A stretch of DNA of 64,000 nt, from contig AP031355.1 in assembly GCA_037833965.1 (NCBI GenBank), positions 19,307,501-19,371,500 of the forward strand. Direction: 5' to 3'. Positions 3,831 to 64,000 of the stretch are shown piece after piece. This stretch comes from Marchantia polymorpha subsp. ruderalis (taxonomy: Eukaryota; Streptophyta; Marchantiopsida; Marchantiales; Marchantiaceae). The notes beneath the pieces were generated by a model, which was not told the origin of the DNA, made no database searches, and saw only the letters and a program-made list of their open reading frames with translations. Within the stretch, counting starts at the first letter, position 1; the number at the start of each line of letters is the position of its first letter. The translations under genes and the position numbers were made by a program.

Positions 3831-3835
3831 CAGAG

Positions 3836-6711: not shown

Positions 6712-6770
6712 CACTTGGGCGGCTGAACTTCCTAAATCGTTAAGAAATAGGAATCTCAGCCGCCCAAGTG
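6712..6770. repeat. Hairpin-forming inverted repeat
   Basis: Arms cacttgggcggctga (6712-6726) and tcagccgcccaagtg (6756-6770) are perfect 15-nt reverse complements. Inside them ttccta (6729-6734) pairs with taggaa (6748-6753), extending the stem across small internal loops. A transcript of either strand would fold into a hairpin of about 59 nt. It could be a small RNA precursor, the end of a small element, or chance; no expression evidence is visible. Confidence 0.6.
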
Positions 6771-8865: not shown

Positions 8866-8923
8866 GGAATCCAGATTTCATTTCTCATCAAACATGCGGC
8901 ATGTTTGATGAAATCTGGATTCC
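8866..8923. repeat. Long hairpin-forming inverted repeat
   Basis: Positions 8866-8881 (ggaatccagatttcat) are the exact reverse complement of 8908-8923, and 8886-8897 (catcaaacatgc) of 8899-8910. Together they form a stem of about 25-28 bp with one small asymmetric bulge and almost no loop. Such a tight fold is cruciform-like and may be the product of fold-back template switching. Confidence 0.65.
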
Positions 8924-9676
8924 AGCATGTTACATGCCGTATACTGCACAGCAATCCATGGGGCCGATCAGAATGATGCAGTAATACTTCTGTTTCCATC
9001 AAAGACACTACTTAGTGTTTTCTTTATATCCTCATTTTTAATGTAATTAACTCCGTATCATTGATATGGAGGTGTTCATTAGCGAAAGAGCATCCCAAAA
9101 ACAGGTCTGTCTGTTTTGTGAATATGAGAATCTTCCCTTTCACTTTCGCAGTTCCCTTTGACTTAGTCACTGCGGGTGTGCCCTATCTGAATATGAGTGT
9201 TGGTGATTCTTGATCTCGTAACAATTTCATGCATTTAAAGTCCACAGTGGCCACGGGAAGTCAGGCTGGAGACTTGAACGCTCATTGTGGAATAGCCTCT
9301 GGTTCTACGGTAGCTAGTACTTTATGCGCCTTCCTCCCTCACATATTGCCTAAGATTTTCTACAGGTGTAGGTTAAGTTCTACAGGAAATATGGAAAAAT
9401 TCTATGAAAAATCCACGATTGTGGACGCGCTTTGAACATGAACTGCCGCTCGATAGATTCGGAGCTTCGTCGGACCAGCTTTGCTTATGTACTATGAGGA
9501 TGCTTAATCATGTTATACAAGTCTGGGTTTTAATCACTGGCATCATTCGAGTTCCTCGTCTCTCGACCGCTATCCTCAGAGGGAGGGTAGAGTTGTAACT
9601 GACACCCATCTGCACTTCCTGACAGATTAAGATCCTCAACCTATATTTGTAGTGACTGGAGTCAAATCTATGCAAG

Positions 9677-11249
9677 ATGAGGCTTCTGTTCGAAGTACTC
9701 TGCTTCAGTTCACTTTTCCTCTCAGCTGCACAGGCGTATACATTTTGGGATGATTTCTATGTGTTTTTTGGTGGCGTGAACGTACACTTTCCTGGCAATG
9801 TGACAGGGAACACCGTGGAACTGGGACTTACTAACAAAACTGGTACTTGTTCGGATTCAGACACTGGACTTACACTCATTTCGCTGGAATTTATGGTTGC
9901 AGGCTCGATGGTTAAACAAAAATTGCCAATGGTCGATACCGGATTTGTAATGTTCCTGGATTAATACTAAAATTAACTTCATCTTGAAGTTCATTATTGT
10001 CGATTCTTTGTTAATGTCAGCTCACCAAGTTTTCTACTCTATTAGGATCTGGTTTTCGATCCAAATACCCTTATCTGTATGGCCAACTCTCGATGAAGGT
10101 GAAACTTGTGGGAGGCAACTCCGCCGGAACTGTCACTTCTTTCTATGTAAGTGACCTTACAGAAGTCAGGCTCTTTTCTTCGTAACTTAAAAGTCGTCTC
10201 CCAACTTGAAGACAATTTTTAGAGTATTTGCTAGATCTGAACTTCCGATGGCACAGTGAAAATACAATACAAGTACAATACAGTGAGTACGAAAACAGCT
10301 GTTTAATAACAAATCAAAACTTGCAAAGTTATTATCCTATTGCATGTCTGAAATAGGATAATATCTATTGCAGACATGCAATACGTATTTAATCGGTTCG
10401 CAATTTCAGGTACGCTCGACATACAAGAACTGGTGTGAACTCGACTTCGAGTTTTTGGGCAATGTTTCAGGGCAGCCTTACATTCTGCAAACCAACGTTT
10501 TCACTCTAGGACAGGGCCATAGAGAGCAACGCATATTTCTTTGGTTTGATCCTACAGCGGACTTCCATGAATACGGCATTCTTTGGAACCAAAAGCTCGT
10601 ATTGTGAGTGATGAAAACTAAACTTATAGCCTCAAATTTGTGCTTTGACCGTTTATTGTTGACCTTTCTGAAATACACAGACCTCTGGCTCTGCTGTCGA
10701 CACAACGCGCTAAGCCTTGGTATATAACATTGTATGCTTCGAGTAAGAATCGGGACCGCTCACGGATCAGAGCACAGACCCTCGGATACAAGTGTAAACA
10801 TTCTCTCCTTGGCTGCTCTCAGGTTTCTGGTCGACAACCGTGTCGTCCGAGTCTTCCACAATGCCAAGGACCTTGGGGTCCCATATCTGGAGTATCAGCC
10901 TATGTACATCTACACCAGCATCTGGAACGGAGACTCGTGGGCCACTCGTGGAGGTCGCGTGAAAACAGACTGGAATCAGCAACCTTTTGTTGCATCGTAC
11001 ACAGGTTTCAACGTTTCGAATGCTTGTGCAGTTAAGAACGTCGTCGGACCTAGATTCATCAACACCTATAACTGTTACAGAAAATTGTACAGGAGCCCAT
11101 ACGGTCAGGGCCCCAACCTCCAGCTATCGCAATCTCAGATTGCTGATCTGAGGTGGATTCAGAAAGGCTTTCTAGTGTATGACTACTGCACAGATGTCAA
11201 TAGATTCCCAGGGAAGGTGTATCCAGAGTGTGTAAGGAACTGGCCTTGA
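9677..11249 (+). CDS. Xyloglucan endotransglucosylase/hydrolase (XTH-3)
   Basis: Complete XTH of 295 residues. Exons are 9677-9842, 10046-10146, 10410-10603 and 10823-11249; the first three have exactly the lengths seen in XTH-2. The third donor is gtgagt; all acceptors are AG. Another ATG at 9670 is out of frame, so 9677 is chosen because it opens the signal peptide (ends FLSAAQA, about 21 residues). The mature start is [20 protein letters not shown]. The catalytic motif is E99-L-D101-F-E103 in the [11 protein letters not shown] context, with the NVS glycosylation sequon next. The C-terminal XET_C region has [15 protein letters not shown], two Cys pairs and the ending PECVRNWP followed by TGA. 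Intron 2 contains interlocked inverted repeats just before its acceptor. The role should be wall xyloglucan remodelling, with activity type not predictable. Confidence 0.95.
10338..10383. repeat. Interlocked inverted repeats in XTH-3 intron 2
   Basis: Segment A, attatcctatt (10331-10341), pairs with aataggataat (10352-10362). Segment B, tattgcatgtctg (10338-10350), pairs with cagacatgcaata (10371-10383). The order A-B-A'-B' means the two stems exclude one another or form a pseudoknot. The structure ends 26 nt before the splice acceptor at 10409. Confidence 0.6.
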
Positions 11250-13003
11250 AATCCATAACCCTTCATTCTTAGCCTAAATTCTTTTAATCTCGTGGTTTTA
11301 CAGCCCGTCATTCCCGAAGTCGTAGAGCTATGTCATCAGCTTTAGACGCAAGAACATGTACAAATGATGGAGATTCATCAGCAGACCCCAAGTTGAGTTT
11401 TTTGTTCTTCCATTCGTAGTTCTCGTGTCCATAGAACCGAGGAAGAATTTCACCAGTAAGCACGGGGTGACAGAAGTAAAAGATTTTGAATTAGTGACTA
11501 CAGGATTGGACCTTGTTTTCATTCTCAAATAATTAGTGGTTTCGAGATGTAGATCAACACCGCTCAAGGAGGCTGTAAATCAATCTCTTTTCTACTTGGT
11601 CGTGTCTCTTCTACTTGTCTACCATCAGTCTGAAACTAATTGAACTTCTATCATCTACAGAAGTCGTTTTCGTACTTTTACGTTCTTATATCTGGACATA
11701 TCAACTTTACAGCATAAATTCTCATGGTCATGGCATTCACTGCAGATATCTTCATGTTCGAACCGATGTCGACACAAGGTCTGTGACGCGAGCGCATAAA
11801 ACTGCTATTTTACTTGTGCTGGAAATGTGGGGTGATATCTGTCACTAAATTGGTCGGAAAATAAACCGGCCTGCAAGTCTGTTCAAAGCTTGCTCGCTAT
11901 ACCGTTTATGCGAAGACCAGAAATACCATTGCCTCTTCCATCTGCTGCTGTACAAGATACCAACCATCGGCTTTTAGAAAGATCGACTTTTGAGTACTGA
12001 TCTAGGAATCCCAAAGATTGCGGAAGCCTGCCATCTGCTGCAGGTGCCGTCGAGACGAGAGGCACAGCATGAGCTTGTAAGGATTACATTTCACCTTGGC
12101 TTTAAGTCAAATATTCATTCATGTGAGTAAAAAGTGGCAGAGAAAGTGTCGCAAGTGAATTCTCTCCTCTGAATTGCATGCAACACTGTCATTTTGCAAG
12201 GAGTTCAGATGTACAGAAGCGATACTCCCGAAGTTCTGGAAACGCGTCAGAGTTGACGTGACGTAAGCTTTATCCACCACCGTGATTTTGCTTTAACAAA
12301 AAGCTCATGACTGCTGGACCGTATCAAGAATGGCTCTTCAGATGCTTGTGTCTGGCATTGTGGAAGAGATACGTGTAGGAAGCCATCAGCGATGCATGGT
12401 AAGAAGTTCTAGACACTTAAAATCGCTCACATGGCTCTAGCATGAATACGTCTAGGATGAGTATATCTGTCTGCCACAACATGAAGAGACTCGTCCACCA
12501 AGAACTCAATTCTTCCTGGCAGATGTACCTAGAAAACATCTTTGCATCGTAAGGCAAGTCTCATCGCTTTCCTTATACTGGAATCTTGCTGGACAGCCAC
12601 AGGCAGATTTGCGCTCACGCGCTCGTTGGATGCCATGATCAGCGTACTAAAATCCATTGACAACTGTTTCGAGTGCGCTGTCCGGACCGCCATATCCGCT
12701 GAGACATGAGCACGACTAGTGAGACGGGAATGTATGCTGGCAGACGTGCTCTCTGCATTGACCCACGGGACTGTTGTGGGGCTATAAGCTTCATGTAAAT
12801 TGGCCTCTAATGCTTCCGCATCTGTGGTCCTCTATTTGATCTTATTGAAAGGACAAGTGCCGGGTACTTATCGAGAGGTACAAGAATAAGGTCCGGGTTC
12901 ACTCAGATTGAGCAGTTGGTCCGATTTGAGCTGCAATTGCAAGTGCCAGAGAGCAAATGCAATCTGAAGAACCCAGTGGCGTAGATCTTCAAGATTAGAC
13001 AAG
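11250..13003. other. Intergenic region between XTH-3 and XTH-4
   Basis: No supported gene. ORFs on both strands are at most 79 codons and have no recognisable motif. No clear TATA box was found upstream of the XTH-4 ATG. The last part should hold the XTH-4 promoter and leader. Confidence 0.5.
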
Positions 13004-14781
13004 ATGAAGCTATTTTTCTCACTGCTATGGTTTACCGCAGTCTTCATCACACGTTTGCAGGCTGCTAAATTTTGGGATGACTTCTACGTGACTTATGGTA
13101 ACGAAAACGTGAAATATCCTGGCTCTGATCCGGGCTACATCGTTCAGTTGGGTCTCACTAACAGATCAGGTATGGAAAAAGGTTTCTAGCTAGATGTGGA
13201 ATCACTCTGTCACTTGCAGGAATCTGAATCTATTAATCATGATGGTGGTGGCCAACTCCTGATTTTGCCCTAAAACTGCCGCAAAAGTTCCCTCTCGATT
13301 GTGATGATGGTTGCCGCTGCGGCCCCTGTTCCTTGCTGTTGCACGAACTGACTTGTCCTTGTGGTGGATCTGGATCAGGATCTGGATTTCGGTCTAAACT
13401 TCCATTTCTGTACGGCGAGCTTTCCATGAAAGTGAAGCTGGTGGAAGGAAACTCAGCCGGAACTGTCACAAGCTTTTATGTAAGTGGTATCCATTTTATG
13501 ATTTGTAGGCGAAATACAAATGCAAGAGGGCGAGCTATCCTTAAAAATTTACTCCAACGATTCTGTGTCAAAATTTCCTCTGAAACCGGCTTGTTTCATT
13601 TTATTTTGTTTTCGAATTCAGCGCACCGAAGCATTCATAATCCGATCTCACAATGATTTCGACGTCCATTCTATAGAGTACTGATACGAGGTTGTGAATG
13701 AGGTAAGCCAGAACGCAAAGAAGTTGAGAGAAGTGTAGTTGTCAGGGGTTTCTCTTTCTCTGCAGTCTTGCACTGCGAGCTGTGGAAACGTGAATCGAAG
13801 GATGACTGGATAGGACTAACCCCCCCTCCCTTCTTCCGCGTTTGTGCAATTTCAGATGGCTTCTATCTTCAAGAACTGGTGTGAGCTAGACTTCGAATTT
13901 CTGGGCAACGTGTCGGGGCAGCCCTACATTCTTCAAACCAATGTTTTCTCTGAGGGAGTGGGTAATCGAGAACAACGGATCTACCTTTGGTTCGATCCCA
14001 CGGCTGACTATCATACCTACAGCATACTCTGGAATCAGGCCCTTATAATGTAAGTGATCAGACTCTTTTCGAGCGTTGCAATTCAATTCAATTCACTTAA
14101 TTCTCATCGAACTCACTCCGCCAGCTACTGCTTCATGGAATCCTCATCTCCACATTAGCATATCAGAGTCTCGTACAGATCAGGAATTCAACTGTATGAG
14201 ACATGTCTGGAAGCATTGTGAAACAGCTCACGGACTCAAGGCGTGGTGTCACCTCCAGGTTCAAGGTTGATAACAGGGTCATCCGCGTGTTTCACAAAGC
14301 AACAGATCTGGGAATTCCGTATCTAGATTACCAACCTATGTACATCTACTCGAGCATCTGGAACGGAGAATCGTGGGCAACTCGTGGCGGTCGCGACAAG
14401 ACCGACTGGACTAAGCAGCCTTTCGTCGCATCCTACACAGAATTTAACGTTTCCAGCGCCTGCTCGTTGAAGGACGGCTACGTGACGGAGGATTTGCATG
14501 CCTGTTACAAAATGCTGTACCAGAGTTCATACGGTCAACCTCCCAACCTCGCACTCTCGCAATCTCAAATCGACCATCTAAAACTCATCCAGAAAGACTT
14601 CTTGATCTACGACTACTGCAGAGACACGAAGAGAACCAAGAACGTTCCACCCCCCGAGTGCTCCAGGAACTGGCCATCCATCACACTTTCCTCTGCTATA
14701 ACAGCCGCATCGACTGAAAGTCACGGTTTCTCTGTGTTGGATTTATCGCCAAAACTGTCTCGGGACAGACTCACGGTGTAG
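13004..14781 (+). CDS. Xyloglucan endotransglucosylase/hydrolase with C-terminal extension (XTH-4)
   Basis: Complete XTH of 327 residues. Exons are 13004-13169, 13379-13479, 13856-14049 and 14259-14781, in the same plan as XTH-2 and XTH-3. Signal peptide of about 22 residues (ends ITRLQA). Mature start [20 protein letters not shown]; catalytic E99-L-D101-F-E103 in the [11 protein letters not shown] context; NVS sequon follows. The XET_C domain has [15 protein letters not shown] and PPECSRNWP. Where XTH-1, -2 and -3 stop right after RNWP, this gene reads tggccatcc and continues for 34 more codons to TAG at 14779-14781. The tail is Ser/Thr-rich with no known domain. The acceptor of intron 1 lies in a ggatctggatcag repeat, so slight acceptor slippage is possible. 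The enzyme is otherwise intact. Confidence 0.93.
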
Positions 14782-31629: not shown

Positions 31630-33700
31630 TTTAGAATTGATTGTAGAAATCGAAGTTGCTATATTTGAACTGAAGTCAAAGGTCATGAGAGGCCTAATGC
31701 ACATTGAAGACAGAACCATTACCTTCGCAAACCTCAAACAGGAGTTTCTGTAAGTCGTCGTCTGGGTTTCACTTTGTCCTGGAGACAGGCTTCTAACGGT
31801 CAGTAATTAGAGCGCTTTTAGATCATAGTGAGGTTTAGGTCACCTTCCGTGATTCAGAGTGGTACGTGCATTGCTTCTTATATCATTCTCATCTGCTGGA
31901 TTCGGAGGTCCAAACCAGATTTGATTCTAGTAATTTTTGATAGGCACTAGAAAACGCTGGCCATGCATCTTTTCAATGAGAAAAGCTTGACGGATTGCAG
32001 TGTCCGAACTGCACATTATTGAAGATTCAGGACCTTTTATGCTCCAAAAATCCATGTGAATGAATTTCTTTAGTCAAAAGAGCTTTCCATTGTAACAGAT
32101 ATCAGACCAGTGGCACGTATATGATTCTCGAAGATGTCAATGGAGGAAAAATTATCTGTTTTGTTCAAGCTTTTTTCCAAGTACAATTTGGTATCCAAAA
32201 CTAGAATGTGATACTAGGTTATCATCCACATACATTGTTTCTGCTGATTTCTGTCGGATATAGTGTTTCATTCGATTAAGATGAAAAAATCAATTTGATC
32301 GCTGAACACAATTTTATTTCCATCGCGAAGTTTGATCAATCAAATCTCCATGCAAATACGTCAGAGCGTCGTTTGCATTGAGCAAGTTGAATATTTATGG
32401 CTCTTTCTGCATGAATACGTCCCCTCTGGCTTTAGTACAAACAATCTTCCACGCCGATACTAAACCCGCGAAATCAGAGAATAATTACCAATAATTGCCA
32501 CGATCCGCCATATATGACGCATCTGGTGACCCATAAAACATGCTTCACATGTAAGGTTACCTTCAATGTAATCCATCGGCTATAAGGTATTTTGTGCCTC
32601 CTGATTTTAAGATGAACAAATGCATTTATTAATTATTCTAGACAACTCGAACTATCTTTCGTGAAGGATACCCATAGTGAGTTGAATAAGGCTCAGATGA
32701 CCAAGTGTGTCGTGCGCTTGACTATTCAGATAATTAAAATGAATTGCATGTCATCCCACACAATGAATCATTTGGAATGATTGAAGATATCAAGATTGCT
32801 ATGTTTGAACTGAAGTCAAAGGTGATGAGAGGCTCATGCACATAAGACAAAGCAAGCAGGTAGTACCGCTCACTGAATTTGGAGGTATTTTAGACATGAA
32901 AGGTTAAACATGCCGCCGTCCAATGCTTCATAGAAGAATAGAACGAAAAAAAAGTGCTCATAAGTCCAAAATTCTAAAGAGGGTAGACCCTCCGGGCAGC
33001 GATATAAGAATGTCAACTGAAGCATGCCAGACATTTATTTCCATGAGGCAACTGACTGAAATCCTTTTGGGAACAAGCTTGTGTGATTTATGTGTACACG
33101 GGAAAGTGAAACATGGGACATAGCATTCAGTGAATTCAGTGAGTGTTTTGCAAGGGAAAGTCTTCGTCGTCATAGACTCTGGGTTGTTTAGTGAAATTTT
33201 CATGAAATTAGAAGAGTCATGTAAATTCTTGGGCCGAGCATACAGACGCCCCTAGCTAGAACCTTCCGCTGGCCGAAGAAGTTGAGGTAACTGAAGGTCA
33301 TGCTTCGGGCCCGGAATGCTGTTTATTCCATATTATTGAGGAGCGGCTGGTAAAAGTCCAAATCAACTTGACTCCTGATCACGATCTCCAGGAGGAAGGA
33401 GGAGCGTGCAGGCCAATTCTGTGATCAGGTGAACTCTTGTCTGAGGCAGGCGAAGGTATTTTGGATTTGCAAAGTGCGGGAAGCTGTTGGTTTCAAGAAA
33501 GAGTTCTCTCAAAGTCTAACTCCTCGCTGAAGAAAGATCTTTTGTAATGCGAATTGCCAGGGTTCCCATAGATGATTCCCACTAGTATGCGTGAAGAATC
33601 TTAACAGACAACAAACTCATCATGGACTACCTAAATTAAGCTTACAAGTACAAGTGGCTGGGATCTATTATCGTCAAACATAAAACCACATAGTTCCAAT
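31630..33700 (-). repeat. Direct copy of the PPO locus flanks, with the PPO body missing
   Basis: From about 32,222 to 33,457 this matches, in the same orientation, the 3' flank of the intact PPO gene (about 59,890-61,193). Shared landmarks include ccgccatatatgacgcat, ttcaatgtaatccatcggct and agagggtagaccctcc. From about 33,465 to 33,680 it matches the PPO 5' flank (about 63,310-63,510; shared gtttcaagaaagagttctct). The roughly 2.1 kb holding the gene are absent. One block (tttgaactgaagtcaaaggt) also occurs at 31,673, just outside the main match. A further piece at 31,945-32,055 recurs at 42,973-43,087. Confidence 0.8.
33425..33457 (-). pseudogene. PPO C-terminal relic in the gene-less PPO locus
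   Basis: Read on the - strand, this piece encodes TFACLRQEFT and a stop. The intact PPO ends TFDCLRQEFT and stop (61,161-61,193). Upstream of this relic the sequence jumps directly into PPO 5'-flank homology, so only the last ten or so codons remain of a 619-codon gene. Confidence 0.8.
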
Positions 33701-36700
33701 TCTAGACTTTTGATCTTGTTATTTTTCCACGTAATGATTTAATATCAATTTTATTTATAATTAATTAAAATTATCATAATTAACATAATTATAATCAATT
33801 CATTGATTAATTTTAAAATATAAATAATATATCAAATTTGATTCAGCGTCTTAAACAATGACATATTTGTTTCCACGGCAAACAATTTAGTTGCTTTTAT
33901 GTAAATGTATAATTTACACTTTTTTCAAAAAATTACATAATCTTACAACAATTTTTTTTTACTCTTTGTTGTAAAAACATAAAATATGTCATTATTCAAG
34001 CATGAATAGTCTATCATATAAAACTATTTAGGCTTGATTATTTTTAAAATTATAATTAAAATAATCAAAAGCTTGTATCTATTGCTTGCTCAAATTATAA
34101 CGTTCGAAAATTGTTAAAAAAAACCTTCAACTTCTTATTATTTATACAATTTATCTTAAAAAATCAAATATAAGCATTCTATGTCAAGGATAATAAATTT
34201 AAATTTATTAATAGTAATCAGTTATTACAAGGATACACGACTGTATTTTTTCAAAATTCTGTTCTCATTCATCTCTATTTAGATTTTTCTTTTTTAATTC
34301 CTTTTTTATAAATTTTTGAATTTTTCAGTAGAATATATTAAAAATCATGTATTAAGATCAAAATTGACGTGAATGAACGTAGATTTAAATCCATTAACTA
34401 TTACTTTTAACGTTGTCAACACTTGTAATATCACAAAATTGATCATTTTTCAATGATTTGAATCTTTTGGTATTAAAAAATATGAAAATAATTCAATTTA
34501 TTAAAAAATGTGATAACAAACATAGTTGACAATCTATACATAAAAAATAGACTTTGATGAATCTTGTTAGATATAATTTTGATTTCATAAATCATCATTA
34601 GGGAAGTCATACTTCTCAGAATGAAAGTATTTAGCCACATTGCCAAAAAATAGTCGGTCATAATTTTTATTCAGTGATTGCTCTTAAAACGTAAATTTTT
34701 GCCAAATTTCCAGCATACAATTGCAATTCGTCTAAAAATTTACTCTTAGATTGAGATCTAAATTCAAGTAGAATTTTTTTCATTGTCATTTTTAAATGTA
34801 TAAAATGATGTATGAATCAAATTGAATGTTATATAAAATAAATAAATACTAACAAAATAATTATCTTTCGGTGAAATTATTAATTCACAAATTATCTCAA
34901 AATTTATTGCAGATGAATGTTTTTTCATGATAATGAATTTACATGGGTGTTAATGACTTAAATGAAGCAATTAATGAATCAAAAAAAGTGAACAGCTTAC
35001 AAATGTTACTTATCTTATATAACAAGATATTTATCAATAATAAAAAATGGTCTCTTAATTATTCAATTTTAGTTTTAACAATTGCAAGATCTTGAGACTA
35101 TTTTAGTCTTTTGAATGTGGTAAAAAACTGTAGAAAGCCGTCGTTATATTTATATGCTTAATTCAATTTTTTTTGCAAACAATGTACATAACCATCTTAT
35201 AAAAATTTTCTAATTATTTTAACTGAAGTGAAACTTAAAGCTATAAATTTGTCTTTGATTTTTTTTCACAAGTGAAAATAGTCATATTCATTGTATTTGA
35301 AAAATTTCAAACCAAATTTCTTACTTTCTGTGATGAAAAACTGATTATCTAAGCTTTAAAAGCTTAAATTTTGTGCTTTTTGATAAAATAGATTTTTTTT
35401 ATTAATATTTGTTAAAAGAATCAATGTTTAATGAGATATAAGTGAAAATAAAATTCATCATTTATTTCTTGATTTCCTCTTTTTTACATAACATGTATAA
35501 TTTAAAAACTTTTTTTTCTCTTTCTAAACTAAGCTACAAAATAATAGAGCGCAGTGTCACTTTTGAGCTCTATTTATAGATCTTATGTTCAAAATTTTTA
35601 TAGCTTAAAGTTCTTTTAATCTTAGGCTTGTTATCAAAACTTTAATCACTTAGCTTTGTGGGATTACTAAAAATCAGCTTTAGATGAATATATGTCAGAT
35701 TTGGAGATTATTTCAAATTTTATAAAGAAAATACAAATAAGCTGCGTCAATTTATCATCTATTGTGATGATGCCAAAATAATTTTTTTCCCATCCAAATT
35801 ACAAGGAATGAAGACATTGAGGAAGGTCATAAAGATTTAGATTAAAATTGAGACAAAATATCTAATTTTATGAAGCAATCTAAGATCTGTTTGATTTATA
35901 TAGTGAAAATAAAACAAGTTGGACTAATTAGACATAAGGAAGCAAGATGTAGCTATCAATGATACAAAGTTGAAGATTTCAAGCAAACATTTTTGAAGTT
36001 TTCATTTATGTAATTCACTAAAAATTAATCATATTATTTTTTTGTAGATTGATCATTTGATTTGTGTGGTAGTGAATATCTTACATCTATACGGTTGTGA
36101 ACAGTAAGTTTTGATGCGCAATTCTGGATCTGCTTAAATAATTATAGGTGGAATTTGCAATTTATGTAATTTAGTCAAAAGACAAATGTCATGACTTAAT
36201 GTTATCAACATTGCTAAAATTGATTATCAAGCAATATCAATATGCATAAAATATCCTTATAAACTTTACGTGTTGAATTTCTCTCTATATTTATTTCAAT
36301 CTTCATTACATCAAACTTTTTTGAAAAATTTATCTTACCACTTATAAATGTAAGAAAGACTGCATGTTACCATTAAATTTTGACAAAAATTTAACTTTGC
36401 ATTCAATTTTTGATGATTTTTTTCTCAAAGCGATGTTGAATTTTAAGAACAGCTGATATGTAATCATTTTGGACTAATTGAAATATAGTTGTCATAGATT
36501 ATTTAGGAATATTATGTGATGTTTTTTGAAACTTTGTTTTAAATTTATCGATTATTTTGTTAATTGAAAGTAAAAAATTAGCAATCTATGATTTGAGAGT
36601 GATAAATTTCAAAAAAATCAATCTATCTAGAATTACATGAATGATGATGAAAATTCTGAATTTTTTTACATATAGATACAATGTGGAAAAAAATCCATCT

Positions 36701-36850
36701 CTTCAGGATAATTTTCTGGTATGAAGTTACTAAAAATGGAAATAATTGGAAAAATAATTGGAAATCTAATTTCAATATTCATTGCTCTCATGGTTAAACT
36801 CAATTACATTCAATATAGATGGTCTCCGCAATGCGATTGCTAGAAAACTC
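33700..36850. other. AT-rich gene-free region
   Basis: Very AT-rich, with many homopolymer runs and stops in all frames. No gene, RNA or recognisable repeat is supported. Confidence 0.5.
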
Positions 36851-37099
36851 AGACTATGTAGTCAACAGGATCAATCACACACCTGTGAAGTATTGAGGCA
36901 AGAGATTCCGAGACAATGCTGACACGCAATATTCACGTTCCCATGACAAAGAAGAGTTGAGATATTGTTGTAGACTTTGAATCATGTCCAAACAAATCAT
37001 GCCACTTTTTCTAAGGTGTGGATTTTATCAGAGGAAGATGCTTCCAAATCAGGACGTGTACGGAGGCCATGCTATGTACTCGGCTGTACTTTCGGTGCA

Positions 37100-37655
37100 A
37101 GACGGGTGATTCTTCTCATAACACCTTCGCAGATGCACTAATACGTGGGGACTCGGATCGTTCGGTTTGAGTAGTAAAGTTGCCTTGATCAAAGCAGAAA
37201 CTCATTAAATTGACTTCTTACTGAGCTGGTTTTCGTCAATATTGAGCCTTTCACAAATCTTTTACTGGTGATTTACTAGTGATTGCCAAAGTTTATGGTT
37301 CTCATTGCTTGAAATGAAATAAATCCAAGAAGGAGAAGTATCTATGTGGAGTGCGCCTGAATTGATAGCTCGGAATGGATTATATGTTCAGGTGAGATAC
37401 GTAACATGGCTTTATGAGTCGCGGATTCCTGTCACTGGCTTCTCAACCTCTCAATCATCTGCGATTTCAACGTAGCTGTCAAGATGGGGGAACGTCCGAT
37501 GCAGAAAGAAATCTATGGAAGAAGCAGTGCAAGCTTGGGCGTCACCCGCGGGTCAAAAGCTCGTCTGGGCTTCCTTCATGTGCTCGATCGTCCTAGTCCT
37601 GCAACATCTAGCGCAGCCGGCTAGTGCGGGTCCGGTCCTGGCCTGAAGCCGAACT
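37100..37655 (+). pseudogene. PPO 5'-end pseudogene outside the left inverted arm
   Basis: This is an inverted copy of the 5' flank and start of the intact PPO. Block 37,100-37,260 matches the complement of about 63,840-64,000, and block 37,265-37,655 matches the complement of about 62,860-63,240; the 600 bp between these in the PPO flank are missing here. The coding start is at 37,485 and begins MGERPMQKEIYGRSSASLGV, against MGERPMQKESWGRSSASLGV in the gene. A frameshift follows and the frame ends at TAG 37,622-37,624. No catalytic region survives. Confidence 0.85.
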
Positions 37656-38354
37656 TTCCGAACCAATTGCACCTGACAGAACTGCCATCACGGAGCAAGA
37701 AAAGCTGTTTCAAATTTTGTGAAAACCTTCTATTAGACTCGATTACAATATATCTTCAGAGAACCAGGTTTCCTAAAACTCTTTTTCTACACCTTTTCAT
37801 CACTCACATTTACCCCCTAGAGTAGCAAAGTGTATGGAATAGCTGTCATTTTGGATGCGATTGAGGCTGTGTAAGGCAGCTACAATTACTTCTGCGCAAT
37901 CTTGTCAACGACCACCAGTCATGACACTTTACTTCCACTGTTCGTACTTGCCTATGTTGTCACCAACAACTGTGGGAAGGATGTATTAGATTCTGATCTG
38001 AGAGCACCCACTATCTATACATATGTTATAGATTGGGGGTGTGATAAACAATTTTTTATGCTCGTTTTTACTGCAGTCTTTGAGGAATTTCCTTGTTGCT
38101 TTCTATTAGCCCTGTTTCGATCCATAGGCCAAATGAACGCCTGATATTCGTTGTTAGCATAATTTGCTGATCTGGCGCTGAACTGTTTCAAGATAGGTGT
38201 CATTGCAGTATCGTATCTGTCATCTAGCTTGACAAGGTAATTCAAAATTTCATAATCAGTTGAACAGTTTAACCCTATGACTGTTTCGACATTTCACGAT
38301 GGTCAATGATGGTTCCAAGTTTCATACACCTCCAGTTATCCACGGATTCAGGAC

Positions 38355-38361
38355 AAGATAA
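38355..38361 (+). promoter_or_regulatory. Possible TATA-like element of exchanger copy A
   Basis: ataaata lies 70 nt before the ATG of the left exchanger gene. The duplicated copy has ataagta at the same place. Motif and position only. Confidence 0.25.
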
Positions 38362-38430
38362 ATAGGGAATGAGAAGCTCTCCATCTCAGGAGTTCATCCA
38401 GACTCAGTCCTGTCATTCTCTGCTGCTGCC

Positions 38431-41400
38431 ATGGAGTCTCCTCTCATCATTTCGATGAAGACCTCAATCTGGACCGTTTTTCTTCTCTATTTGGTCGTAG
38501 TGTGTTGCGCTAGACCGTATGAAAATAGTCTCAGTTCGGAAAAGCCTGATCTGGAAACATCGGAAGCGTCAGATATTGTCCTTTGGCGTTCACAAGAGAG
38601 TACTCTTAAATCTTTCATAGCATTTGATGGCAGCAATGCAACAGACTGCCAGAGTGGTTATGGTTTTCTTCCCTGCTCAAACATTCGGTCCGGAAGTGCC
38701 TTTTTATTGCTGGTCTACGGATTCATGATGTTCATTGCTGTTGAATTCCTAACGAAAGGAAGCCAGCTATTGTTGACCGTGTTGGATCCTGGCTTTGTCG
38801 CGGGCATTGTTGTTCCTATTCTCAAGACACTGCCAGCTACTTTCCTTATCCTCGGTGAGCAAATGCTTGGGGGCTATCTTATTTCATAACCACGCACTTC
38901 TAGACTCATTACACGAACCCTGTAGTCATCTGTGATTTGAAAGCTAGAGAATATGAAAAAATTGGCATACATGTCTCTTCAAGCTTCGATTTGGATACAT
39001 TGCAAGCAGACTCCGAATCACCTTTCTGGCCCTTCAGCGAAAAAAAAGATAGCAAAGTTTATTTATAAAGTCTCGCAAAGTCAGCTCATAGAATCGAATC
39101 AGGAAAGGTTGTGAAAGTTTCTTCACAGTTGCAGGCGTATGAACTGCAGGTTGAGGTTTTTGGAAGTGAATGTTTGGCTTGTTCTTGAGTGAAATTGACT
39201 CGATTGACATGGGACGAGTGCTAACCTGTTGTCTAGTCGGAGCATCTTGGTCTATCTACACCGACTTTGATCACTGTCTCTTCGAAGGAATCGAGTTAAA
39301 GCAGATGTTCTCTCCTGGATCGTGAGGTAGCCTCACGGATTTGTGGGTATTGTGCAGTTGCATTCTTGGCTGAAAATGAAGAGGATGCACATAGTAAAGC
39401 ACTCGTGGGCATGGGTGTGCTGGCTGGAACAAGTATCGCTCTGCTCGGCATTGTGTGGGGAAGTTCCATCATAGTAGGCCGCTGTGACTTTGACTCCGAT
39501 CGTGTAGCAAGGGACAAAACACGCAACCAAATTTGTGCTCTAAGAGGCAAGCTCACCACATTCCCTTCTAGCAAGACCTTTCTGACAATTATTGTATTCA
39601 TAAAAACAGAAGTCTTCCCTGTTATCCAGCCGAAAGGCGCGCTCTGTCGTGCTGAATTGAAGTAATGCAGAAGTAGAAAATTCCTGAAGTAAAATCTTGA
39701 AGATTTAGTTTCTCGAGTTTATTGCTTCTTCAATATACAATCAAATGCAAAAACCATAGCAATGCTGAATATCTAGGCTCTTGGAGGTTTGGTTTCTATC
39801 GATCTTTCTGTAGGTACTGAAATGTGCAGTGTTCAATCTTACAATGCAGAATCTGGAGTAACAACTGAGTCACGTACCAGACAGGCTGCATGGATCATGC
39901 TATTCACTGTATTACCGTTCTTGGTCATACAGTTCCCTGTCATGCTGGGCAGGTCAGACAAATCAATTCATATTTCCGTGCTCGTAGCCGGCGTCTTGGC
40001 TCTGGTCACACTAGCAGGCTACTGCATCTATCAGGTATCTTCTGGAAGATGTAACCTTGATTTGCATGCACCTGCTTTGAGAACTGTCTTTAGCTATGTG
40101 TGTTTCGTCTGCGGGGAGAAGTAATAACTTCATCCCTGCGATCAGTAGTGAAAAACTCAAGGTTCAATGTATGAGACTTCCTCCTTGACAAGCTCATATT
40201 ACTCTTGAATGTGCGACTTCAAGTCTGGTTCATGCAGGTTTGACTCAATTCATTTGTCTGTATGCATCAGATGCTATGTCCGTGGATTCAAGCACGATTG
40301 ATCTACAAAGCCCAACAGGCGTTTCATCGGTCCCATCATTTCACTGAAGTGCCTTCTCCAAGTGAGGTCTCGTGGGTCTTGGCAGATGGAACTCCTGACA
40401 GGATTGTACTGGAAAAGTAAGATCCACCATTCCCTGCCTTACGCAAAGATATGTGTAAGTTTGTTCAGCAGTAAACATGAATCGTAGTCAAACAAGAATT
40501 TATGTGTGGCCAACTGCAATCAGTCAAGGTCAAACAGTTCATATAAAATCTACGCAGGCATTCTTCTCAAGTGAATGGAATCTAAACCGACGCAGAAGTT
40601 GACAGATGTGGAGTTCGATTCAGCAAATCGTTCTGTTATATGAAGCGTCTGCGTAAGCGAGTGACTACTGTGTGGCAGAGCAAAGGATTGAGCCAGGCTC
40701 CTTAAGAAAGTTGTTGGGTTCAGTTTTATTGTGAGAAGTACTGAAAGAGAGGGGAAATTCGTTAAATACAGTCAGTTGAGACTGACCACTTACATGTCTC
40801 CTATACGATGAGCGCAGATTGTTCAAAAAGCTAGATTCGGATGGGACCGGCTATATCTCTATGAGCGAGTTGCGAGGATTGATCCTGGCGATGGGACTCG
40901 ATAGCGAAGATGAAATTCCTGCGAAACAGGTGGTCATAGACGCAATTAAAACATTCGACGTCAAGAAGACTGGTAAAGTTTCTCGAGAAGATTTTGTGAA
41001 GGGTATGGATCACCTGATCCGAAGCCTCAAAGGAGACATCAGAAGGTCACACACATCTGCCGAAATCCCTGCTGCTCCGCACCAAGAGCCAACTAGCGGA
41101 GAGCTCATTACAGGAACTAAGGTGTGTTTCTGGTGTTCCCATGCTAAAACTCTCGTGGATTCATTCACTCATTCATGCACTCATAATTTTCATCCAATCG
41201 CAAACTGACTTTCAGATGGAAGTACAGAGATACAGCCCTGTCACCTTTTTACAAGGTGATAGGAATGCGAGACCTTGCAACCTCCAGTCAAGAAATGTGT
41301 CTGTACATATATTCTAGCTGCTTACTCGTGCCGGTGAATAGGTGGTCAAAACTGAGCTCTACTGACTGGGTGTGATGTGTATATTGTGCTTGTCAGGAAC

Positions 41401-42193
41401 TTGAATTGTCAATTGCAGCACTGCTCGCGGAAGTCCGAGAAGACGAAATACGGGAGATGCAGGCCACCATAGCGCCGGAGATGGCCATCGTCTACGCCGT
41501 GCTTTACATTATTGCTGGTGTAGCAGTGGCAGGATTCGCGGCAATTCCTACGGTCGGAGTTATAGGAGATTTCTCGAAAGCTGCCGGAGCGGATCCCTTC
41601 ATCGTGTCCTTTGTGGCAGCTCCTCTGATCTTAAATCTCAGTGAGGGAATCAAAACCATCTCTTCTGCTGGCAAAAGAGGAACGCTACACATAACCACGG
41701 TCTTCGCCGAGGTATGTCGGTGGCATTGTTGATTTCGCAGTGGATGCAAGTTCCATGCATTCCAGTACCTTTCAGGTCGATACATTTTAACACCTTGCTC
41801 TCCGTCCATTGCCTTGTCTTGTGGAAACAGACCTACGGACGGCTGACGATGAACAACACGCTGTCACTGGCAATCTTCTTAGCCGTAGTTTACTTCAAGG
41901 GTCTAGCGTGGGAGTATCCTTCGGAAGTGCTAGCCATCCTGATTACCTACGTGATCATCGGTCTCATCGCATCTGTGCGCACCAAATTTCCAATTTGGAT
42001 CGGCATCCTGGCCATCATCCTCTATCCTTTGATGCTAGTGATACTGATCGGCTACAAGATCATCTGTGCGGCTCTTACTACTGGGATCGACTTGAAGTTT
42101 ACAGTCTGGGAGGGAATCATTGCACTGCTCGTCTACCCTACGCTGATCTTCCTTCTGGTCGTCGCCTGCAGTGTTTGCCTACCAAGATTTTAG
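38431..42193 (+). CDS. NCL-type EF-hand sodium/calcium exchanger, copy A
   Basis: Plant NCL-family membrane exchanger, expected to move Ca2+ against Na+ or H+ across an internal or plasma membrane. Seven exons: 38431-38854, 39358-39546, 39814-40034, 40271-40416, 40818-41121, 41397-41711 and 41831-42193, giving 653 residues in one frame. A signal peptide or first helix (residues 10-27) precedes the family motif YGFLPCSNI and the first exchanger repeat (GSQLLLTVLDPGFVAGIVVP). Residues 327-395 hold the EF-hand region: loop 333-344 (DSDGTGYISMSE) looks able to bind Ca2+; loop 374-385 (DVKKTGKVSRED) is weak. The second repeat has APLILNLSEGIKTI, retaining the NxSE signature, then TMNNTLSLAIFLAVVY. 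The first repeat lacks the usual Pro-Asp-Ala (here LPATFLI). Intron 2 starts with GC, not GT. Inverted twin of the gene at 55.3-59.1 kb. Confidence 0.88.
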
Positions 42194-42650
42194 AACACCA
42201 CTGGACCCATCAAACACTGCATCTCCGAGAAAATCAATTCCGCCTTTTACCGACTACTGTCCGATATCTCCCTTCATCACCTCAATCATTCCCGAGCCAC
42301 CATATAAGGACTCCACCGTGTTCTGACTACTTTTCCTGCCACTCCATCATAGGCTTGCTCGGCCTCCATCCCTTCTCAGTCCACAGAAATTTGAAGAGTT
42401 AGAAGCTGATATCTGTCGGCACAGCTTCTGACTTCGGGTGTACCTGTAAGTGGACAGATGTTTATATTCTTCTACCATAGTTCAATTCTCTTGTCTGTCA
42501 TCTTCCCGCCATGAAATAGAAGTCCTCCACAGTGTATCCGTACGATGTACTTCATCATGTACATGTACTACTTGTGCCTTCAAAAACCAGCCCTTATTCT
42601 ATTTAGAGGTTATGTAAACATTCATAAAAAATTTGAGCCGTGTATACGTG

Positions 42651-42656
42651 AATAAA
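42651..42656 (+). promoter_or_regulatory. Candidate poly(A) signal of exchanger copy A
   Basis: AATAAA about 460 nt after the stop, conserved at the equivalent place in copy B (complement at about 54,855-54,860). Confidence 0.4.
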
Positions 42657-42972
42657 AACTTGATCTTCCTTTAAATTGTAGTCATGTAATATTTCCCTCT
42701 CGGTTGTTGTGATTCTCTAGTTTCTGAAGGCGAGTCAATGTCAATTACAAACATGTCAGACTTGCAAACGATTGGTAGATGAACTCCTGGGCTTCATGAC
42801 ATAACTTCCAATCCATGTACATAATATCAATCTCATGCGCGTAAATTGTCATTATGTTCCAGTGCGTATCTAACATCACCTTACATAGATTTTACTACTT
42901 TTTTATTCTTTTAGTCACTGAAACACGTAACATGTTGGCGATCGTAACATGGCCTGCAGTAGCCACTGCATG

Positions 42973-47190: not shown

Positions 47191-47195
47191 AGTAT

Positions 47196-47690
47196 AAATC
47201 CAGAAAATGACTTTTCTTCTGGATCCATATGTTCTGCATGTGAAAAATATAATTTTCACACGAAAATCTTACAGCTGGATTTGTTCTAAAACAAATCCGG
47301 AAAATGACTTTTCTTCTGGATCCAAATGTTCTGCATGTGAAAAATATAATTTTCACACGAAAATCTTACAACTGGATTTGTTCTAAAATAAATCCGGAAA
47401 ATGACTTTTCTTCTGGATCCAGATGTTTTGCATATGAAAAATATAATTTTCACACGAAAATCTTACACCTGGATTTGTTCTAAAATAAATACAGAAAATG
47501 ACTTTTCTTCTGGATCTAGATGTTCTGCATGTGAAAAATATAATTCTCGCACGAAAATCTTATAACTAGATTTATTGTAAAATAAAAACTATACTCTCAT
47601 GACTTTTCTTCTATATGGGATAATAAAATATACCATATAAATGTTCTGCATCTAGATTATTAAACATATAGACAAAAATCTTACCAAGTA
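47196..47690 (+). repeat. Tandem array of a 97-bp unit
   Basis: aaaatgacttttcttctgga begins at 47,204, 47,301, 47,398 and 47,495, an exact 97-bp period. At least four near-identical units are followed by one or two decayed units to about 47,690. Each unit contains tctggatcc and a near-palindrome built around gaaaaatataattttc. Outside the array the sequence is simply AT-rich. Confidence 0.9.
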
Positions 47691-53800: not shown

Positions 53801-53929
53801 CTTCCTTTGACATCAGTACAAACATAGCAATCTTGATATGTCCAATCATTTCCAAAGAGTCTATTATGTCGGATGAGATGCAATTCACCTCAATGATCAC
53901 AGTAGTCAAGCGCACGACACTCTCGATCA

Positions 53930-54530
53930 TATAAGCCTTCACAAAGATAAGAGCGCTCAGCTTATTGTAAACAATGCTCCATAGTATGCTCAGGTTGGAG
54001 TCCTTGACCTCCTGGGGGATCGAGATATACCCCGCCAACTCATCCGCTGGTTTGAAGTTGAGTGGGAGAACCTTCGGGAGCAGATGGTTGGGATTTCTGA
54101 GTTACCATCGTGAAGAAAAGGATTGATGACTCCTGGATTCGGTGGATTGTACTAGAGGAGAATTTGAGGAATTTGGTCGAGCTGGTTGTCGCAGTTCCAG
54201 AACGGAGAACGAACTCAGGGTCGTCGATCAGACTGCCAAGGATCCTCTCGTAGAAGTAGATCAGCATCCTGTGCAACGGGAGGAACGTCCAGCTGAGATG
54301 CAATTGGAGAAGCTGTGATGTAGCAGTGCTATTGAAATATCTGGACACGAAAGGCTTCACGCAGAAAGAGCAGTGAGTGTGTCATTGTATGAGGAAGCTT
54401 CGGGGATCGTCATCGAGGAGCGCCGTCATATGCGAAGTTTTATTTGTTCACTTACTCCACATCGTTGGCCAGCTAGTGCGCAGGCCTACTCACACGCAGC
54501 TCAGGATTAGTGGCTGCCACTTTGTCTCTG
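53930..54530 (-). pseudogene. PPO pseudogene fragment (N-terminal and CuA region)
   Basis: On the - strand this corresponds to residues of about 95-300 of the intact PPO. Recognisable pieces are RPAH, stop, LANDVE, stop, VNK, stop (near 54,490-54,440), then LQLHLSWTFLPLHRMLIYFY and ILGSLIDDPEF (54,360-54,200), and later NLSILWSIVYNKLSA near 53,960. Three nonsense codons in the first 20 codons, frameshifts, and the change of PWHR to PLHR show it is dead. It lies at the inner end of the right inverted arm, 0.6 kb from the exchanger 3' flank. Confidence 0.85.
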
Positions 54531-55326
54531 AAACAACAATATTGGGTTCTGTTGGCGATCGTCACATGTTAAGATCACCAACATGTTACATGTTTCAGTG
54601 ACTAAAAGTATAAAAAAGTATCAAATATATGTAAGGTGATGTTAGATAATGGAACATAATGCCAATTTACTCGCATGAAATTGATATTATGTACATGGAT
54701 TGAAAGTTATGTCATGAAGCCCAGGAGTTGATCTACCAATCGTTTGCAAGTCTGACATGCTTGTAATTGACGTTGACTCGCCTTCAGAAACTAGAGAATC
54801 ACAACAACCGAGAGGGAAATATTACATGACTACAATTTAAAGGAAGATCAAGTTTTTATTCACGTATACACGGCTCAAATTTTTTATGAATGTTTACATA
54901 ACCTCTCAATATAACAAGTGCTGGTTTTTGAAGGCAAAAGTGGCACAAGTAGCACATGTACATGATGAAGTACATCGTACGGACACACTGTGGAGGACTT
55001 CTATTTCATGGCAGGAAGATGACAGACAAGAGAATTGAACTATGGTAGAAGAATATAAACATCTGTCCACTTACAGGTACACCCGAAGTCAGAAGCTGTG
55101 CCGACAGATATCAGCTTCTAACTCTTCAAATTTCTGTGGACTGGGAAGGGATGGAGGCCGAGCAAGCCTATGATGGAGTGGCAGGAAAAGCAGTCAGAAC
55201 ACGGTGGAGTCCTTATATGGTGGCTCGGGAATGATTGTGGTGACGAAGGGAGATATCGGACAGCAGTCGGTAAAAGGCGGAATTGATTTTCTCGGAGATG
55301 CAGTGTTTGATGGGTCCAGTGGTGTT

Positions 55327-59121: not shown

Positions 59122-59765
59122 GGCAGCAGCAGAGAATGACAGGACTGAGTCTGGATGAACTCCTGAGATGGAGAGCTTCTCATGCCCTACTTATCTTGCC
59201 CTGAATCCGTGGATGACTGAAGGTGTATGATATTTGGAACCATCATTGGCGATCGTGAAATGTCGATACAGTCATAGGGCTAAACTGTTCAACTGATTAT
59301 GAAATTTTGAATTACCTTGTCAAGCTAGATGACAGATTCGATACTGCAATGCCACCTATCTTGAAATAGTTAAGCGCCAAATCAGCATTATGCTAACAAC
59401 GAATATTCTGCGTGCATGTGGCCTATGGATCGAAACAGGGCTTATAGAAAGCAACAAGGAAATTCCTCAAAGACTGCAGTAAACGCGCGCATAAAAAATT
59501 GTTTTTTCACACCCCCAAACTATTATATATGAATGGATAGTGCGTGCTCTCAGATCAGACTCTAATGCATCCTTCCCTTAGTTGTTGGTGACAACATAGG
59601 CAAGTATTTCTAGGCATCAGTACGAACAGTGGAAGTAAACAGTCATTACTGGTGATTGTTGACCATATAAATCATAACATTTCACCAACCAAAAGTAGAT
59701 TTGGTCACAAAAAGTATTTGAAGTTTGTTCAAAATTGGCTTGCAATCTGATCCAATCTTTTCGAA

Positions 59766-61160: not shown

Positions 61161-63020
61161 TCATGTGAACTCTTGTCTGAGACAATCGAAGGTGAGGGCC
61201 TTAATGTTCCAGCCGTACCCATGAGGTCTGAACCTGGGCACGACAGTCACGGTGATGTCGGTGTTCCAGTCGGTGACGCCCAGCCTCTTCAAGGCCAAAG
61301 AAGTGCTGAAGCGAATGTTGAGGGTGCGGTACATGTCGTCGTCCTCGACGTGCACCATCTTCTGGCCCAGGTCCGTCACGGTCGTCACACCGCTGGGGAG
61401 GTGAGTGAAGGTGCCCACGTAGGCCGACTCGTCCTCGTCCGTCTCGGCCGTGGCCGCGGGGGAGTCGAGGAAAACGTCGAAGCGCACATACATGAGCTCG
61501 GGCACGCGCACGTGCTCCAGCACCACGCCCTCGCTCAGCTGATTGACGTTCAGGGCCTGCGTGCCTCGGAGATCGGCCGCGGTGGGAGCCCGGCGCGTGA
61601 GCTTGAAGCTCGTGGGACGCCTTGCGATGGCGTTGCTGGTGCTGACCCTCACGTCGCTGCGTTTGTAGCTGGGCTTGGTCCCGTTGGGCTTGTGGTTGAT
61701 CCACAGGCTGTCTGCGTCGACCATGGGCTGGTACGTGTAGCCCAGCTTGCGGCTGTCCAGCGTATCCTTCACCTTGACGATCACCATGTCTGCGTTCTCG
61801 TCGTAGAATGTGAACTCCGTCTCCAGGAAGTCGTAATCGTCGTAGTCCCTGCGGACCCGGTGCCCGTCGGGAGTGATCTTGTCCGGAAGAGCTTTCCAGA
61901 CATTCCACAGACGGTCGACGTTGGCGTGGTGCGAGTAGAAGATCGGGTCGCGCCCTGCGTACGTGAACACGCCCATGTCCTCGTTGTCGGGATAGGCCGT
62001 GTTGTTGAGCATGCCCACCCATTCGTGAGCAGTGTTGTGCAGCGATTCGGAGCCGCCGGACTCTCCGACGGTGACGTTCACGGCCTCCGTGAAGTTGGAG
62101 CTGGTGTCGTACGGTCCTCCCATGTACTCTCGGGCGCTCACCTTGTTGTACACCATCTCGTAAACCTGGCCCAGGTTGGCGTGCCTGATTTGGTCGTGAG
62201 TCCAATTTGCCCGCTCCTTCTCGAGCGATGCATCGAAGGTGAGCGGAAGAACCTTCGGGGGCATGTGGTTGGGGTTGCGGCGTTTGCCCTCGTACAGGAA
62301 CGTGTTCCTGATCTTTCCATGGCGTCCGTGCTGTCGAGGCCATCTAGTGGACTGCTGGTAAGGCAGGAAAATCTGAGGAATTTGGCCCGCGGTGGCGTCC
62401 AGCTGGTTGTCCCAGTTCCAGAACGGGAGAGTGAAGTCGGGGTCGTCGATGAGACTGCCCAGAATCTTCTCGTGGAAGTAGATCAGCATCCTGTGCCATG
62501 GGAGGAAGGTCCAGCTGTAGTGCAGTTGGAGGGGATATCCTGTGGCCGAGTTATTCAGCCTTCTCTGAAGGTAAGCCTCTTTGCAGAAGGAGCAGTGAGT
62601 GTGCCATTGTCTGAGAAAGCTCCTGGGGTCGTCAGCGGGAAGCGCGTTCATTCTCTCGTAAGCCAGGTTATACTTGTTCACGTACTCCACATCGTTGGCC
62701 AGCTCGTGCGCAGGCCTGCGCACGCGCAGATGGTGCACGCGGGGCAATTGGAACCTTTTGGGAGTTCGCCGTGGAGCCGGAAGGCAGCACTGCACGCTTC
62801 GGTCTTTCTCCTCCTGTGTCGCCTCCAACCGCACGGGCTTGCAGAAGCCCACGCTCGAGGCCAGGACCGGATCCGCAGTAGCCGGCTGCGCTAGATTCTG
62901 CAGGACTAGGACGATCGAGCACATGAAGGAAGCCCAGAGGAGCTTTCGAACCGCGGCCGTGACGCCCAAGCTTGCACTGCTTCTTCCCCAGCTTTCCTTC
63001 TGCATCGGACGTTCCCCCAT
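61161..63020 (-). CDS. Polyphenol oxidase (tyrosinase/catechol oxidase type), secreted
   Basis: Intronless PPO of 619 residues: a type 3 copper enzyme that oxidises phenols or catechols to quinones. The ATG at 63,020 is chosen; the open frame continues 39 codons upstream but has no ATG there. Residues 25-49 form a hydrophobic signal (LLWASFMCSIVLVL), and six or so N-glycosylation sequons follow, so secretion is likelier than plastid import. CuA ligands: H142 in HTHCSFC (with C146 for the Cys-His thioether), H167 in LQLHYSW, H176 in PWHR. CuB ligands: H328 and H332 in HNTAHEWVG, H365 in DPIFYSHHANVDRLW. The PPO1_DWL domain follows with the motif changed to SLW (438-440). The PPO1_KFDV domain is seen as MYVRFDVFLDSP (510-521). 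The gene is far GC-richer than its surroundings. Outer neighbour of exchanger B; relics lie at 33.4, 37.5 and 54 kb. Substrate unknown. Confidence 0.95.
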   Translation of the reverse strand: MGERPMQKESWGRSSASLGVTAAVRKLLWASFMCSIVLVLQNLAQPATADPVLASSVGFCKPVRLEATQEEKDRSVQCCLPAPRRTPKRFQLPRVHHLRVRRPAHELANDVEYVNKYNLAYERMNALPADDPRSFLRQWHTHCSFCKEAYLQRRLNNSATGYPLQLHYSWTFLPWHRMLIYFHEKILGSLIDDPDFTLPFWNWDNQLDATAGQIPQIFLPYQQSTRWPRQHGRHGKIRNTFLYEGKRRNPNHMPPKVLPLTFDASLEKERANWTHDQIRHANLGQVYEMVYNKVSAREYMGGPYDTSSNFTEAVNVTVGESGGSESLHNTAHEWVGMLNNTAYPDNEDMGVFTYAGRDPIFYSHHANVDRLWNVWKALPDKITPDGHRVRRDYDDYDFLETEFTFYDENADMVIVKVKDTLDSRKLGYTYQPMVDADSLWINHKPNGTKPSYKRSDVRVSTSNAIARRPTSFKLTRRAPTAADLRGTQALNVNQLSEGVVLEHVRVPELMYVRFDVFLDSPAATAETDEDESAYVGTFTHLPSGVTTVTDLGQKMVHVEDDDMYRTLNIRFSTSLALKRLGVTDWNTDITVTVVPRFRPHGYGWNIKALTFDCLRQEFT

Positions 63021-64000
63021 CTTGACAGCTGCGTTGAAATTGCAGATGATCGAGAGGTTGAGAAGCCAGTCGACGGGAGTCCGCGACTCATACAGCCATG
63101 GTACGTACCTCACCTGAACATATAATCCATTCCGCACTATCAGTTCAGGCGCCGTGCATTAACAAAACTTCTACTATTTGGATTTATTTCATTTCAAGCA
63201 ATGGCAACCATGAACTTTATTAATCGCTAGTAAATCATGAAGCGGCTAGAAAACAATCTGTCCTTCCCACTTCAGGCTGGTGGTGTACAATGTGTTGGAA
63301 TTCTATTCGAATTTGCAAGCTGCAGGAAAATGTTCGTTTCAAGAAAGAGTTCTCTCAAAGTCCAACTTATGTGGTCGGAATTGTCGGGGCTACCCTATAC
63401 ACGATTGCCACTGGTCTGCGTGAAGGGTCTGAATAGACAACAAGCTCTTCAAAGAGTACCTGAATTAAGTAACAAGCTCGCAGCTTTCAAGTACCAGTGG
63501 CTGGGGACCGATTATACTCTAGCAGAAGAAGAAATAGCTCCAAACTCTGTGTTCTTGAAATGCAGAGACAGTTGTGAAGTGCCTCGTGCTGGTACAAATG
63601 AAGACTCAGCATGCACAATGCTCCTGTGAGAGGGAAGTACGCGAATTCTCGGTATAAGTACTCAATGCGAGCAATAAAATACAAAAGAGTTTCATCATTG
63701 TGGATATGCGTCACAAATCAAAGGTGGAAGCCTTTGATTTGTATTATCTCAACTTCAAGTTCGTGTGCCCAACAACCACTGTGATGGGACAAGTTTCAGA
63801 CCTTTTGGTGTGCATCACTGGGAAGATTTCCGAGTCCCTCATCGTTGACGATAATTAGTTCACGTAGATGTCAATTCAATGAGATTTTGCTTTGACCAAA
63901 GCCACTTTGTTATCTACACCGAAGGATCCGAGTCCCCACGTATTATTGCATCTGGGAAGGTGGTATGAGGAAAATCGCCCTTGTCTTGCAGCAGAAACGA
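63021..64000 (-). other. PPO 5' flank, likely promoter
   Basis: No gene is supported; the + strand frame at 63,237-63,629 is not conserved in the paralogous copies. Parts recur at 33,465-33,680 (direct) and at 37,100-37,480 (inverted), so this flank has been copied with the PPO gene. No clear TATA box was seen. Confidence 0.5.

Follow-up and report, generated by a model that had tools for sequence, protein, structure and literature searches.

Did a PPO gene once stand between two PPO flanks that now meet, or were the flanks brought together with no gene between them? The question is raised by a locus within about 32.2-33.7 kb of the window, the 64,000-nucleotide stretch of Marchantia polymorpha DNA analysed here (C6:19307501-19371500, containing no N), where self-alignment and comparisons with other PPO copies show that both edges of a PPO gene are kept and the gene body is absent. 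An earlier note on this DNA had proposed either excision of a duplicated copy or a flank-only copy made by recombination. Searching the single genome to which the window belongs (241,466,482 bases, 9 contigs), we confirmed the locus as a real PPO gene relic, for which gene loss in place is the most likely origin and a flank-only recombinant the less likely one. The features on which the argument is built are collected in Table 1.

Table 1. Features of the window, with positions counted from its first base
Feature	Position	Strand	Remarks
Outer downstream flank common to the stub locus at C6:24.58 Mb	31705..32223		L021 936-1458, 84%
PPO 3' flank	32227..33391	- (orientation as for minus-strand PPO)	self-alignment
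PPO 3' end with last ten codons (TFACLRQEFT) and stop	33404..33457	-	
Junction	33457..33460		no microhomology by eye; at most ~2 filler bases; ~2.1 kb missing
Putative PPO promoter piece, from the interior of a dispersed inverted-repeat element	33461..33699	-	~240 bases
Stretch without PPO homology	33700..35946		only short weak matches elsewhere in the genome
Upstream flank of right-hand PPO relic, in blocks	35947..37261	+	longest matches with L018, 71-79%
Promoter deletion in right relic	37261..37265		~612 bp absent (L018 2247-2857), element fragment included
PPO N-terminal relic	37265..37658	+	~codons 2-98, two stop codons (translated match)
Inverted copy of 54565-59663 (stretch beyond the intact PPO's 3' flank)	37904..42951		94%, self-alignment
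Another broken PPO fragment, ~codons 137-376	53823..54499	-	
Intact comparison PPO	61161..63137	-	658-codon frame beginning GTG; left arm of head-to-head pair
Element fragment in the intact PPO's promoter	63311..63543	-	

Probable remains of a left gene and the join

The PPO 3' flank is recognisable over about 1.2 kb (32227-33391 against 59891-61092, 75% identity, plus strand in self-alignment) and, as the earlier note had claimed, the match runs on through the end of the gene: 33404-33457 aligns with 61131-61193 (76%, plus strand) and includes, besides the stop codon, the last ten codons (33428-33457), whose translation TFACLRQEFT differs from TFDCLRQEFT in PPO at one of ten residues. Alone, this stub is too short for significance (tblastn E 1.6); it is carried by the DNA match that passes through it and by its 97-100% identity to the PPO copies L017 and L018. 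On the other side of the join, 33465-33699 matches the promoter of the intact gene (63311-63543, 68%, E 2e-22, plus strand). The absence of a gene body of about 2.1 kb between flanks kept in the orientation of the intact gene, also proposed earlier, is borne out by this alignment and by seven PPO references: the missing span is 2100-2117 bp against six of them (2109 bp lie between the two sides in both L017 and L018), and the 3069 bp obtained against L027 is due to an anchor on a second stub in that locus. The locus retains a recognisable PPO coding remnant, the ten C-terminal codons, and each of its flanks has a homologue beside intact PPO genes; on the 5' side this homology lies in the repeat-derived promoter piece, which the tree supports moderately. 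A processed (retro)pseudogene was rejected because the homology continues about 1.2 kb beyond the stop codon, and it is the gene body itself that is missing.

Base by base, the best division between the 3' and 5' sides falls at 33457-33459 against six of the seven PPO copies tested and at 33457-33460 against the seventh (L022). No microhomology is visible by eye at the join in the alignments to PPO copies, the bases flanking the break share nothing, and the dinucleotide AT after the 3' side fits neither side of L017 or L018; a microhomology of one or two bases, since lost, may be compatible with the divergence seen here. A deletion between two copies of TCGAA, present by eye near both ends in the copies WIN and L019, was considered and rejected, for the relic keeps the bases that it would have removed; it is also disfavoured by L017 and L018, which carry GCGAA instead.

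The stub has its nearest relatives in L017 and L018, a head-to-head PPO pair at C6:18.64/18.66 Mb, 0.7 Mb from the relic. Identity over the 37 bases that precede the join is 97% to L017, 100% to L018 and 94% to L020, and 83-86% to the other four copies; for the preceding 120 bases the values are 86% to L017/L018 versus 74-78% to the other five compared. The relic and this pair have a 26-base gap and a distinctive stretch in common, and stand apart from the rest in the 3'-flank tree (support 96.2/88), in which a number of rows cover only part of the flank or carry unrelated sequence further out, and L019, L020, L024 and L027b form long branches. Judging from these comparisons, the intact gene of the window, which had been taken as the counterpart 29 kb away and lies 28 kb off, is not an obvious parent. 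Over the whole 3' flank the aligned identity to L017 (80%) is not higher than that to WIN or L021a (82%), and the outer flank, where the match to L021 continues a flank already shared with that locus, is nearest to L021, not to L017/L018. Because stub and outer flank differ in their nearest relatives, the 3' flank is a mosaic. With flanks diverged by 10-25%, the relic is old, and the description of the locus as a clean record of gene loss was too strong, the more so as homology to the PPO upstream region ends at about 33699-33703.

A repeat-derived promoter segment

The 5' block derives from the interior of a dispersed inverted-repeat element, and PPO promoters carry this fragment. The 5'-flank match of the earlier note is therefore real, yet it is a piece of a repeat that occurs at no fewer than 27 non-PPO places; the possibility raised there that the match comes from another repeat turned out half true, in that the block is repeat-derived but belongs to a segment carried by PPO promoters, and PPO origin is favoured. 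At eight places on C2, C3, C4, C5 and C6 (L009-L016) the block has no PPO match in the 7-8 kb read, and a ninth such place (L028) carries only its end. With a longer query taken from one dispersed copy we obtained at least 53 matches, which, counted by hand from the rows and as lower bounds, comprise 27 non-PPO places (39 rows), 12 PPO places (13 rows) and the query itself. We fetched 19 of the 27, none with a PPO match within 1.5 kb, and 18 of the 19 cover the relevant part. The longest dispersed copies span about 22 to 690 of the element query, and four of the five examined carry inverted ends of 47-77 bases, from which we label the element MITE-like. The block itself was found without terminal inverted repeats, only the inner part (273-448 of the query) matching in the surrounding 3.2 kb (L045). 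An Rfam search of the window at gathering scores returned no matches, so that the block matches no known RNA family there.

In ten of ten PPO-linked copies the shared part has its start at 252, 254 or 264 of the element query and its end at 540-542; the PPO genes here thus carry one inherited internal fragment of the element. The block of the relic, at about 268-508, lies inside this fragment, and in PPO genes the corresponding block begins some 140-180 bases upstream of the 658-codon frame. A common element fragment of about 290 bases was observed in the promoters of the 63311-63543 gene and of L017, L018, L019, L022, L024, L026 and L027. The exceptions are broken PPO copies: L020 has only a short displaced piece, and L025, which starts near codon 66, yielded no promoter block.

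In a promoter tree of 29 sequences from 30 loci (10 PPO copies, 18 dispersed copies and the query; left out were L057, whose match misses the relevant part, and the short promoter hits in L020 and L021), the block joins the PPO copies with aLRT 87.1 and ultrafast bootstrap 86, falling outside the group that the ten form without it (84.2/91). At sites diagnostic of PPO versus dispersed copies, the block has the PPO state at 9 of 13, within the range of the PPO copies (9 to 12), and the best of the 18 dispersed copies reach 7/13 and 7/14. In AU tests that made the query sister to each dispersed copy in turn while the PPO copies stayed one group, eight of the 18 placements remained acceptable (P 0.054-0.50). 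The best plain BLAST match is a dispersed copy at C2:2.13 Mb (82%), followed by L017 as the best PPO copy (81%); by alignment identity the order is L051, L052 and L039 (79.1, 79.1 and 79.0%) and then a dispersed copy (78.5%), and with the first three tied at 79% the piece singles out no one PPO copy. Extent, tree and diagnostic sites favour derivation of the block from a PPO promoter, and in our view position decides, because the block touches the PPO stub in PPO order and orientation.

The element and the PPO family may have exchanged a promoter. One tentative and rather doubtful extension is that the PPO promoter segment forms part of an inverted-repeat transposable element, having been acquired before the family expanded or else captured from PPO by the element and then spread, and that the gutted locus would be the oldest surviving witness of this promoter in the genome, because its block joins the tree outside the ten PPO copies.

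A second relic and the layout of the family

The gutted left locus described in the earlier note stands, but the description was incomplete, a truncated PPO at 35947-37658, likely its partner, having been missed. This right relic is inverted relative to the left one and lies 3.8 kb to its right. The best match of its N-terminal DNA (37265-37644) is to L018, at 90%, and the promoter stretch that it lacks is bounded by GTGAT at both ends, as seen in L018. The remainder of the gene and its 3' flank were not found, and there is no PPO match between the right relic and 37904.

Elsewhere in the genome, six plus-strand PPO N-terminal matches of at least 78% (C6:18.660, 19.376, 24.615, 26.615, 26.705 and 26.829 Mb) are each preceded, 5-25 kb to the left, by a minus-strand match. 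For two weaker ones (68%, C6:23.71 and 24.38 Mb) no minus-strand partner lies within 25 kb, and four or more minus-strand N-terminal matches are unpaired (24.80, 24.91, 25.06 and 27.25 Mb). The relics at 33.4 kb (minus) and 37.3 kb (plus) fit this head-to-head plan, the pairing pattern being one of raw counts, and both are probably gutted members of one such pair. At the end of the window an intact pair has arms at 60350-64292 and 67334-71262 (numbered past the window end; 3.97 kb, 93.6%) around a 3.0-kb centre, and the arms of L017/L018 are 98% alike across the 3 kb compared. Many PPO genes of C6 (18.64-26.83 Mb) were seen to lie in head-to-head pairs with similar arms.

The intact comparison gene has Tyrosinase, PPO1_DWL and PPO1_KFDV domains. 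In the fetched loci, nine PPO copies are near full length (WIN, L017, L018, L019, L021b, L022, L023b, L024 and L027a), some of them with a frame change near the start. Stubs comprise 24 codons in L021a and 79 in each of L023a and L027b; other partial copies are L020 (codons 241-658), L026 (codons 1-184), L025 (frame-shifted, beginning at codon 66) and a diverged copy (codons 234-657) cut by the edge of L021 as fetched. These loci were picked by similarity to the flank and block of the relic, so that the census is biased and no rate of relics follows from it.

Probable gene loss in place and the alternatives

In our judgement, 32.2-37.7 kb probably holds the remains of a divergent PPO pair, a layout recurrent in the family here, the left gene having been lost by a deletion of about 2.1 kb and the right one truncated separately. 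The left, minus-strand gene would have been removed in a single event reaching from ten codons before the stop to about 0.17 kb upstream of the frame, leaving the 3' flank, stub and promoter piece, the last two joined directly and with no microhomology. Separate losses in the right, plus-strand gene would have taken its promoter core (about 612 bp, bounded by the 5-bp repeat) and all sequence beyond about codon 98. That the right relic, like the stub, is nearest to L018 supports the loss of a pair. The mosaic 3' flank would reflect exchange with other PPO loci or differing histories of its parts. Against this reading count the acceptable AU placements and the best plain BLAST match of the block, the relation of the outer flank to L021, the unpaired N-terminal matches and the end of upstream homology at about 33699-33703, by which more than one event is needed. 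No version of the locus with the gene was seen in the one genome searched.

We regard as rather unlikely that no gene ever stood here and that duplication or unequal exchange, with breakpoints in one PPO 3' end and in the promoter of another copy, produced the flanks alone. Such an origin would suit the mosaic 3' flank, the promoter piece, which points to a different PPO copy (the L051, L052 and L039 tie) than the stub does, and the recurrence of stubs with 3' flank at L021, L023 and L027, all the more since the L023 stub abuts the 3' flank of the next copy, as expected from partial tandem duplication. It leaves unaccounted for, however, that the span missing between the edges equals one gene body of normal length, and that the locus sits where the right relic should have had its left-hand partner. 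It is improbable that the dispersed element inserted independently next to a PPO stub, which would make the block unrelated to PPO promoters: the many element parts away from PPO, the slightly better dispersed match and the acceptable AU placements speak for it, but the block nests within the PPO-type fragment whereas the extents of dispersed copies differ, both the tree and the diagnostic sites point to PPO, and the block has the side and the orientation that it has in PPO genes. A simple calculation gives about two chances in a million that one of 27 copies in 241 Mb falls within 10 bases of a given point. Least credible of all is a single PPO gene broken and scattered by inversion. Its appeal is that the two relics look complementary, the left one having promoter piece, stub and 3' flank and the right one, which has none of these, upstream flank and codons 2-98; the boundaries nevertheless mismatch, the right relic lacking about -70 to +543 of the promoter and the left one keeping about -4 to +239 (block numbering), and several inversions would be required.

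Loss of the left gene in place, as favoured here, is ordinary birth-and-death evolution, expected in a PPO family that earlier work describes as large and clustered, with fragments among its members; it implies no function for the gutted locus. For Marchantia, one study reports 64 candidate PPO genes, fragments and unresolved models included, 40 of them in tandem repeats or small clusters (PMC7010833), and another cites a count of 34 (PMC12876524). The former agrees with our observations on typical PPOs with DWL and KFDV parts, on fragments and on clusters; unlike the present account, the text available from it does not describe single relics and junctions. In Oryza, likewise a tandemly expanded family, truncated PPO copies are widespread and are read as birth-and-death evolution (PMC12876524); the frequent truncations there are by frameshift indels, whereas the Marchantia relic has lost nearly the whole gene body and the genes often lie head to head. 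Literature searches returned only poplar work for liverwort PPO tandem duplication and pseudogenes, and nothing for Marchantia PPO gene fragments, transposable element and promoter. The relic displays, base by base, what is left of a vanished PPO copy in a large clustered liverwort family; being itself ordinary, it matters more for the two better leads that it gives, the many head-to-head PPO pairs and the promoters with a common transposon-derived segment, which make shared regulation testable.

Finally, some other features of the window were observed. The inverted duplication 37904-42951/54565-59663 (5.1 kb) is, by divergence, younger than the PPO relics, because its copies are 94% identical. 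A short gene occurs in several tandem copies, 71-83% alike, within 1-14781 (e.g., frames 10734-11249 and 14203-14781). The frame at 56175-56684 is presumably EF-hand-like, judging by its appearance, and 47194-47612 is a tandem array of units about 97 bases long, 88-91% alike.
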